Assembly (NCBI GenBank): GCA_902787955.1
Contig: CADAIJ010000009.1
Span: forward strand, 1 to 64,000
Source of the DNA: an uncultured Erysipelotrichaceae bacterium
Lineage (GTDB): Bacteria; Bacillota_I; Bacilli_A; RFN20; CAG-826
Direction of reading: 5' to 3'
Length of the DNA: 64,000 nucleotides
The notes beneath the pieces are model-generated. The model made no database searches. It was not told where the DNA came from and saw only the letters and a program-made list of their open reading frames with translations. Position 1 is the first letter of the stretch; each line of letters opens with the position of its first letter. The translations under genes and the position numbers were made by a program. Below, piece by piece: positions 1,632 to 57,463 of this stretch.

Positions 1632-1701
1632 CTTTGTCATCATCCATTGATAGATCCAATAATAGTTTTTATTTAATAAAAGATACACTTATGATAAAGT
1701 A

Positions 1702-2034
1702 AAATTGCTCATATTTTAGACCACAGGCGCTATGAACTAGCTAATTAAGCAAAGTCGACCATACGCAGGTAAACTGAGGCCAATGGATATATGAACTATC
1801 ACACTACGTGTTAGGGTGTGGTAATAGGGAAAGTATTGCCCAGTAATGATATGAGTCCTAAGGGAGGAGGTCGTAGGTAGAAGACGTCCTTAGGTACGAG
1901 AAGATCATCGCGCTCCCTACAATTAGTATTTAATTGAGCATGTGGCCATCACGAGGATGATGTAACACCAGTAGTTACGGGACTTAGTCGATAACTACAA
2001 AAGGTGTTTTCATTATGGTGATGGCTTTTATTAT
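1702..2034 (+). ncRNA. Candidate large structured RNA ending in an intrinsic terminator
   Basis: The stretch has no open frame but many nested pairings. CTCATAT (1708-1714) pairs with ATATGAG (1849-1855), closing a domain with CACAC (1800-1804)/GTGTG (1816-1820). CCTAAGG (1857-1863) pairs with CCTTAGG (1888-1894). A long rod is made by GCCATCAC (1945-1952)/GTGATGGC (2018-2025), AACACC (1964-1969)/GGTGTT (2003-2008) and GTAGTT (1971-1976)/AACTAC (1993-1998), followed by TTTTATTAT. A possible -10, TATGAT, is at 1690-1695. RNase P, tmRNA, SRP, 6S and T-box hallmarks are absent. It could be a known class I cannot recall (for example raiA-like) or a new one. Ends are approximate. Confidence 0.6.
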
Positions 2035-2082
2035 CTCCTTTTGAAGGCACCACTACTGTCTAAAGGAAGGGGGGAAGATTTA

Positions 2083-2412
2083 ATGCAATCTAAATATCAC
2101 TTTAGAAGATATAGGCTATCACAAAATCATCCATTTCTAGTTGCGCTCGTAACTGAAGAAAAAGATGAGAATGGAAAAGTATTAATTTCTGGTTTTAATA
2201 TGACTAGATCTATTACCTATGTATTAAGCAGGCCAAACAAATTCATTAGAATTGATAATCCAAATCCATTGGACGATGCCGAATGCTACATTTGTGTTGA
2301 TGCATTAAAAGATAAACCAATGAAGTATTTCTCAAAGCCATTAAAGGATTGGACATTATCTGAAGAAGACGAAAAAGTTATCGATGAATTAGTTAAACAA
2401 AAGCTTAAATAG
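2083..2412 (+). CDS. Small protein of unknown function next to the structured RNA
   Basis: The 109-aa protein starts at the ATG at 2083, which has a purine-rich AAGGAAGGGGGG just upstream. An in-frame ATG-less extension to 2041 looks like leader. It is soluble and mixed alpha/beta, with a central NPNPLDDAECYIC stretch and a C-terminal helix. The pattern HPFLVALV near residues 15-22 faintly recalls the small beta-barrel toxins of the PemK/MazF/ToxN fold, but no catalytic residue can be assigned. It begins 49 bases after the terminator-like end of the structured RNA, and a strong terminator follows. Together they form an isolated plus-strand module between minus-strand genes. Confidence 0.6.
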   Translation: MQSKYHFRRYRLSQNHPFLVALVTEEKDENGKVLISGFNMTRSITYVLSRPNKFIRIDNPNPLDDAECYICVDALKDKPMKYFSKPLKDWTLSEEDEKVIDELVKQKLK

Positions 2413-2428
2413 TCGCTTCAAAAAAACA

Positions 2429-2482
2429 AAAGCACTTTCTCATAATGATAGTCTTAGCTATCACAGGAAGTGCTTTTATTAT
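2429..2482 (+). terminator. Intrinsic terminator after the 109-aa gene
   Basis: AGCACTT (2431-2437) pairs with AAGTGCT (2468-2474) and an inner GATAG/CTATC extends the stem. TTTATTAT follows. Confidence 0.75.
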
Positions 2483-29616: not shown

Positions 29617-29823
29617 AAAAAAGTCCTTAATCATAAGGACGAATTATCGCGGTACCACCTTAATTCTATATAAACTATATATAGCACTTCATTAGCTTGT
29701 AACGTAAGCTTACGGAATATTCCTATTCAGCCTCTTAAGCGACAACATTTAGTAATTATCTGTAGTGCTTCCACCATCCACTACTCTCTATAAGTTTTCC
29801 TAAATGACCTCTTCGTCATCGGC
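29617..29823 (-). promoter_or_regulatory. T-box leader of valS
   Basis: On the minus strand the leader carries the T-box sequence AAGGTGGTACCGCG (29661-29648) and the terminator GTCCTT(ATGATT)AAGGAC with a T-run (29640-29617). Stem I contains a GGTGGAA-type loop and a GTC triplet at 29743-29741, which fits a Val specifier. A -10 box TATAAT lies at 29835-29830. Uncharged tRNA-Val should stabilise the antiterminator. Confidence 0.93.
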
Positions 29824-29921
29824 GAGATTATTATAGCAAATCATTTACTAAAGTTAACTATTTCTTTAGAAAACGAATTTGTTAATGGTATTTTAAGATA
29901 ACTCACTAGGAACCCCACTAT

Positions 29922-57227: not shown

Positions 57228-57445
57228 AAATAAAACTCCCCCTTATTTAAGGACGAGTTATCGCGGTACCACCTTAATTCTATATACACTGTATATAGCA
57301 CTTATATTCTCTTTAACGGGAGAAGCGGTTAGCTTACTTTTAGTTCAGCTAGCGTGCTCAGAAGTGATATTTCTAACTAAGTGATGAGCTTTCACCATCC
57401 TCATCTCGCTAAGTTTGTTAGAAACGTGTCTTCGTCTTAGCAAAT
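57228..57445 (-). promoter_or_regulatory. T-box leader of ileS
   Basis: The T-box AAGGTGGTACCGCG is at 57275-57262, followed by a terminator (stem with CCTT/AAGG and CTC/GAG, then TTTTATTT, about 57258-57225). Stem I shows GAGGATGGTGAAAGCTC and an ATC triplet at 57368-57366 fitting an Ile specifier. It is nearly identical to the valS leader in its antiterminator region (TATAGAATTAAGGTGG). Confidence 0.93.
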
Positions 57446-57463
57446 TAAATATCTATAAACGAA

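Follow-up and report, generated by a model that had tools for sequence, protein, structure and literature searches.

Why does a large structured RNA with its own terminator stand directly in front of a gene for a small protein? This arrangement occurs in the window, the 64,000-nucleotide stretch of DNA from an uncultured Erysipelotrichaceae bacterium that was analyzed here. A preliminary description had noted that the order of RNA, terminator and small protein echoes type III toxin-antitoxin (TA) loci, and that the start of the protein loosely recalls small beta-barrel toxins. The plus-strand transcription unit consists of a TATAAT-type box, the RNA, the gene for a 109-residue protein and a second terminator (Table 1). 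As had been described, the protein gene has a terminator of its own, and the unit lies between minus-strand genes on both sides and adjoins tRNA-Trp (2616–2689). The −10 box was missed by a simple two-box promoter scan, which returned one promoter-like match at 2007–2034 and a number of sites not above that in shuffled sequences. Within the stretch searched, TATAAT was exact in 47 of 91 loci and matched at five of six positions in a further 42. On the basis of this conserved box 5′ of the RNA, we argue that a single promoter would serve both RNA and gene, with transcription starting near 1702–1704. Upstream, the minus strand at 329–1530 carries an HTH plus Pol-beta nucleotidyltransferase gene (MntA-antitoxin-like, below the NCBIfam cut-off) and a membrane-protein gene, which are possibly another defence or TA pair. 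The window also contains two T-box leaders, both on the minus strand (29632–29828 and 57246–57447).

Table 1. Features of the RNA-gene module, with positions in the window.
Feature	Positions	Strand	Evidence
−10 promoter hexamer TATGAT	1690–1695	+	TATAAT-type hexamer conserved immediately 5′ of the RNA
Full structured leader RNA, ~330 nt, promoter to U-run	1703–2033	+	Conservation over the whole length in 90 aligned loci; covarying helices
Helix P2 (GCG.TATG/CATACGC), 5′ domain	1727–1766	+	RNAalifold, 31 sequences; nearly invariant
Hairpin P3	1797–1823	+	9 bp, 8 of them with compensatory changes
Long-range helix P4	1825–1830 with 1914–1919 (span 1825–1919)	+	Unbroken; double changes at two pairs, in 11 and 15 of the 31 sequences
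Segment matched by Rfam RF02941 (COG3943 RNA)	1909–2007	+	81.6 bits against a gathering score of 71.8; E 5.9e-15; model 1–108 of 108
Switch segment X (GCCATCAC)	1945–1952	+	Covaries with both Y and Z
Segment Y (TGATG), local anti-terminator hairpin with X	1958–1962	+	94 loci: A-U/G-C and A-U/C-G/U-A exchanges; tree-aware p < 1/2000 at two pairs
Segment Z (GTGATGGC) plus TTTT, intrinsic terminator with X	2018–2029	+	X:Z covaries, p < 1/2000 at three pairs
Predicted anti-SD (TCTCCTTTT, 2034–2042)/SD (GGAAGGGGG, ~2065–2073) hairpin	2034–2073	+	SD pairing prediction
109-aa MazF/ToxN-fold protein, putative endoribonuclease toxin	2083–2412	+	AF2 pLDDT 86.2, pTM 0.78; Foldseek
Terminator of the protein gene	2428–2478	+	Inverted repeat AAAAGCACTT...AAGTGCTTTT seen in the sequence itself

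Judged by its score, the leader RNA is a member of Rfam family RF02941, the COG3943 RNA. The earlier statement that none of the common RNAs fits was thus wrong, because RF02941 was matched above its gathering score. The covariance-model search proposed at that time also named raiA, ROOL, GOLLD, OLE and HEARO, and these gave no match. In the Rfam scan, RF02941 alone reached its threshold and nothing else credible appeared up to E = 1. Weak TIR and mir-302 matches were discarded as chance. Rfam labels the family "Gene; sRNA" and gives it no known job. The motif reportedly stems from Weinberg 2017, and no paper naming RF02941 or "COG3943 RNA" was found in the literature searched. The family was sought in 96 relatives, 392 genomes of the phylum and 224 genomes of the family. 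It was present in 64 of the 224 same-family genomes and rare in one sister family, and none was found outside the order in the sampled genomes. The 94 RNA loci gathered in this way come nearly all from one bacterial family, and most of the source genomes are metagenome-assembled. DNA and protein searches of phage and plasmid collections gave no match. At the end of an IMG/VR viral contig (L080, 9790–10140), the RNA occurs as an orphan copy. The terminator behind it is a different one, and no SD or gene follows within the contig.

The Rfam model covers the 3′ third alone of the ~330-nt RNA. The aligned loci have in common the promoter box, all 330 nt, the terminator and the gene start. The leader folded at −91.8 kcal/mol against −80.3 ± 4.9 kcal/mol in dinucleotide shuffles (z −2.35), which is a modest signal when taken alone; the comparative evidence was decisive. 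Among 31 diverse sequences of the commonest type, RNAalifold returned 50 pairs, of which 27 showed compensatory double changes, in agreement with the earlier reading of this noncoding stretch as a structured RNA. Helix P2 gave no covariation evidence because it is nearly invariant, and it is confined to the commonest type of 5′ domain; several alternative 5′ types occur. The ~330-nt RNA is one folded object, in which helix P4 encloses a variable stem P5 (~1857–1894) and connects the 5′ domain, made up of ~200 nt of upstream sequence, to bases that Rfam draws as an unpaired 5′ tail. The nearly invariant loop of hairpin P3, GTGTTA (1808–1813), is complementary to TAACAC (1963–1968) next to segment Y. 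With both sides invariant, this complementarity is conserved and shows no covariation; contact between the two could plausibly link the 5′ domain with the switch. At the 3′ end, the rod of ~80 nt with a T-run that had been described was recovered as an 81-nt rod, in which 1945–1952 pairs with 2018–2025 and encloses 1965–1969 paired with 2003–2007, followed by TTTT at 2026–2029.

Segment X, the 5′ strand of this rod, has two partners. It pairs with Y in the hairpin that is present in the Rfam model, and with Z in the terminator, and the two helices are mutually exclusive. Over the 94 loci, X, Y and Z changed together, as in CCATC/GATG/GATGGC, CCGTC/GACG/GACGGC and CCACC/GGTG/GGTGGC. Position X6 was A, C or T with matching bases in both Y and Z, and X3 paired with Y3 in 88 of 90 loci and with Z4 in 90 of 90. 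Double changes on a single branch of the tree were found on 10 branches for X3-Y3 and on 6 for X3-Z4. For X3 and X6, the fit with both partners exceeded all 2000 simulated scatterings on the RNA tree (p < 1/2000), where the tree was built without those bases and the null was our own approximation of R-scape. When the 3′ half was screened globally for covariation against a tree null, just three pairs stood out from it, as most columns do not vary, and the targeted tests were therefore used. Since one segment covaries with two competing partners, a switch is implied, and it has the mutually exclusive terminator and anti-terminator helices expected of an attenuator. The terminator stem and U-run were present in all 94 loci, with at least five U within 8 nt 3′ of the stem. 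When the 3′ part alone was folded, the terminator form was the more stable one in 93 of 94 loci (mean 9.8 kcal/mol). From this stability and the universal U-run we infer the direction of switching: the default state is expected to be off, and X:Y would need to be favoured. A leader peptide (uORF) was also considered as the sensor and rejected, because an SD-led ORF of at least five codons was absent in 44 of 92 loci and is thus not conserved.

A second lock may act at the ribosome site, where the anti-SD (TCTCC...) faces the SD. This anti-SD/SD arrangement is conserved, and the SD is predicted to be paired at most loci. The mean SD pairing was 0.94 compared to 0.77 in shuffles (77 loci), but as a criterion SD shielding discriminates weakly, since shuffled sequences with the same composition pair well too. 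In the window itself, where the SD is a variant, pairing was 0.78 compared to 0.77 in shuffles, so the margin is nil. The downstream gene starts 55–86 nt past the RNA core in most loci.

The ORF of the small protein is real, as in other genomes the same RNA is followed directly by homologues with 42–91% identity. Its suspected resemblance to small beta-barrel toxins is supported by the AlphaFold2 model, whose predicted fold is closest to MazF and also resembles CptN, AbiQ and ToxN. The seven best PDB matches in Foldseek were all MazF, from Staphylococcus aureus and Bacillus (prob 1.00, TM 0.57–0.64, E 0.04–0.07). CptN, AbiQ and ToxN ranked lower, with CptN at prob 0.87 and TM 0.55, and there was no sequence match to type III toxins. 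The viral structure list was headed by a phage PemK-like protein. The protein gave no match in Pfam, NCBIfam or PADLOC, nor by sequence in the PDB; the motifs HFR, HP, T-x-S and NP are common to 17 homologues, and H6, R8 and H16 are among the conserved residues. By its model, the protein has a predicted MazF-like SH3-barrel fold and is probably an RNA-cleaving toxin. At one locus (L024), a diverged MazF-like relative is followed by a CopG/BrnA-type antitoxin gene. Two other loci (L002 and L049) have a 60-aa, weakly DUF1040-like ORF between the RNA and the MazF-like gene, which is a candidate protein antitoxin. MazF-like genes without the RNA adjoin what we read as an apparent tmRNA gene on the opposite strand at L028 and L121 (G044:C4 and G247:C14). 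Several diverged MazF-like paralogues per genome, of the HFRGH...HPxYIVG type, were seen at L122, L125, L126, L131, L132, L135, L138, L141 and L144; RF02941 was not found in the relatives that carry them.

The MazF-like gene is one of several that follow this RNA. The classes were DUF1016/YhcG nuclease (49), the window-type small protein (20), RhuM (16), BrnT-BrnA (4) and KilA-N (1), as labelled automatically by our own scripts, with a few loci that have a short first ORF probably mislabelled. The one RhuM scanned contained a Fic domain, and several downstream genes are PADLOC phage-defence candidates (PDC-S02, PDC-S23 and PDC-S05). Some YhcG genes sit behind a 56-aa DUF4314-like ORF; DUF4314/KOW-like ORFs of 51–60 aa were seen 5′ of YhcG at L005, L007, L100, L103, L106 and others, and at L007 the ORF is fused to YhcG. 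In the 41 RNA-bearing genomes, the first gene behind the RNA accounted for 32 of 64 YhcG, 12 of 51 RhuM and 4 of 11 BrnT genes. The genes are exchanged behind almost unchanged RNAs. In genome G538, RNAs that are 99% identical over 387 bp precede a single DUF1016 gene in one case and a RhuM-DUF1016-BrnT operon in the other, and near-identical RNAs before different genes of the same genome were also found in G527 (96%), G529 (93%) and G423 (95%). Over the 86 tips of the RNA tree, gene class changed 27 times, compared to a mean of 33.4 and a minimum of 27 in shuffles. The histories of RNA and gene are thus nearly uncoupled. This is a strong argument for regarding the RNA as a controller of general use rather than as a partner reserved for a single protein.

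We consider it rather probable that the module is self-contained and acts in cis as an attenuator leader of toxin and defence genes. The promoter would make the ~330-nt RNA, which, left alone, would end at the X:Z terminator. Any message that reads through would hide its ribosome site in the anti-SD hairpin, so that the gene would be doubly off. The 5′ domain (P2–P4, where the P3 loop may bind the TAACAC next to Y) would hold the X:Y form, in which the terminator is blocked and the gene is transcribed. In the window, the leader would gate the gene for the MazF-fold protein; elsewhere it would gate YhcG/DUF1016, RhuM-Fic, BrnTA or KilA-N. More tentatively, and with doubts of our own, we suggest a general signal-sensing switch, a single ~330-nt class of RNA portable among unrelated toxin and phage-defence genes. 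It would open both the terminator and the ribosome-site lock on a common cue, and the presumed trigger may be phage infection, a metabolite, or transcription or translation stress. The toxicity of the products and their role in defence are likewise presumed.

The same order of parts might reflect a type III-like pair, in which the ~330-nt RNA binds and neutralizes the MazF-like protein and the terminator merely sets the RNA:toxin ratio. We regard this as unlikely. It would account for the gene order with a terminator between RNA and toxin gene (94 of 94 loci), for the fold match to CptN, AbiQ and ToxN besides MazF, and for the MazF-like genes that have no obvious adjoining protein antitoxin in most loci, and the RCd22-AbiF pair provides a precedent (PMC12373285). 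However, the RNA precedes at least five unrelated gene classes and serves unrelated folds, its sequence barely tracks gene class, BrnT already has BrnA, and the relative at L024 has its CopG/BrnA-type antitoxin. Tandem repeats were also absent: no array was found in 1690–2060, and the search gave a 12-nt × 2 repeat upstream at 1642–1665, a 22-nt pair at 73% and nothing more. Because repeats and toxin specificity are absent, the module is not filed as a type III TA system; the echo noted in the preliminary description stands for the order of parts and for the toxin fold, and falls for membership.

Less likely still is an independent gene for a trans-acting sRNA, with the downstream genes as cargo expressed by promoter read-through and the RNA acting elsewhere. 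The competition between X:Y and X:Z and the anti-SD fit such a plain sRNA poorly, and about half of the YhcG genes in RNA-bearing genomes come first behind the RNA, even if the Rfam label, the terminator at every locus, the conserved promoter box, the orphan copy without a gene and the near-identical paralogues within one genome would all suit an sRNA gene.

The site next to tRNA-Trp is a turnover site, a local hot spot. In genomes G003 and G023, ~1 kb with the RNA and the MazF-like gene separates a zinc-ribbon gene from tRNA-Trp; in G021, RNA and gene are absent and the two neighbours are separated by ~22 bp. At this site, relatives carry different genes (L147–L150, L157 and L159), including KilA-N-like and ORF6N-like ones by our own reading of the translations. 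That the RNA serves chiefly as a platform for recombination or insertion, by which toxin and defence genes are swapped, with regulation secondary, would agree with this ~1 kb insertion, the mobile-type genes at the same spot and the near-identical RNAs with different genes, but is very improbable, given that no recombinase, target-site duplication or shared insertion ends were found at the site and that compensatory changes maintain the RNA structure, including what look like a functional terminator and SD lock.

Work on toxin-antitoxin and abortive-infection genes usually takes one family at a time, each with its own antitoxin. If the reading as a general attenuator leader is true, some bacteria put unrelated toxins (MazF-like, BrnT, RhuM-Fic, YhcG and KilA-N) under one RNA sensor. 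An Rfam family of unknown function gains a structure over its full length and a function that can be tested, and the RNA could be used as a marker for new toxin and defence genes, such as the MazF-fold family that has no Pfam, NCBIfam or PADLOC entry. As far as the literature searched goes, the full-length RNA, the switch with two partners, the wide range of toxin and defence genes that follow the RNA, and the MazF-fold family are new.

Compared to the Rfam model of RF02941, the RNA described here is ~3 times longer, with P4 joining the modelled part to the remaining RNA, and it includes the terminator and the SD lock, which are absent from the model. The RhuM (COG3943) genes are one downstream class, with further classes besides. 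The small protein resembles MazF/PemK in predicted fold, length and its isolated toxin-like gene, whereas it has no sequence-level match to them and its conserved HFR, HP and T-x-S motifs are the own signature of the window-type family. The module shares the order of parts and the predicted SH3-barrel, MazF-type toxin fold with the type III systems ToxIN, CptIN, AbiQ and TenpIN, but its RNA has no repeats and is not toxin-specific. In Clostridioides difficile, the leader RNA RCd22 stays unprocessed between its motifs; it acts in cis to repress abiF and in trans to neutralize it (PMC12373285). The abiF RNA (RF03085) and the module here are alike in having a structured RNA, a terminator, a toxin gene without its own promoter, and cis repression, which here is proposed. 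RCd22-AbiF has two ~35-nt motifs and one protein family, in contrast to one large RNA and many families here (PMC12373285). The topAI-yjhQ leader, which contains the uORF toiL and gates a TA operon, is similar in that leader structure hides the ribosome site of the toxin and TA expression is gated in cis (PMC12121999). Whereas topAI-yjhQ uses the uORF and Rho, the leader here has no conserved uORF and ends in an intrinsic terminator (PMC12121999).
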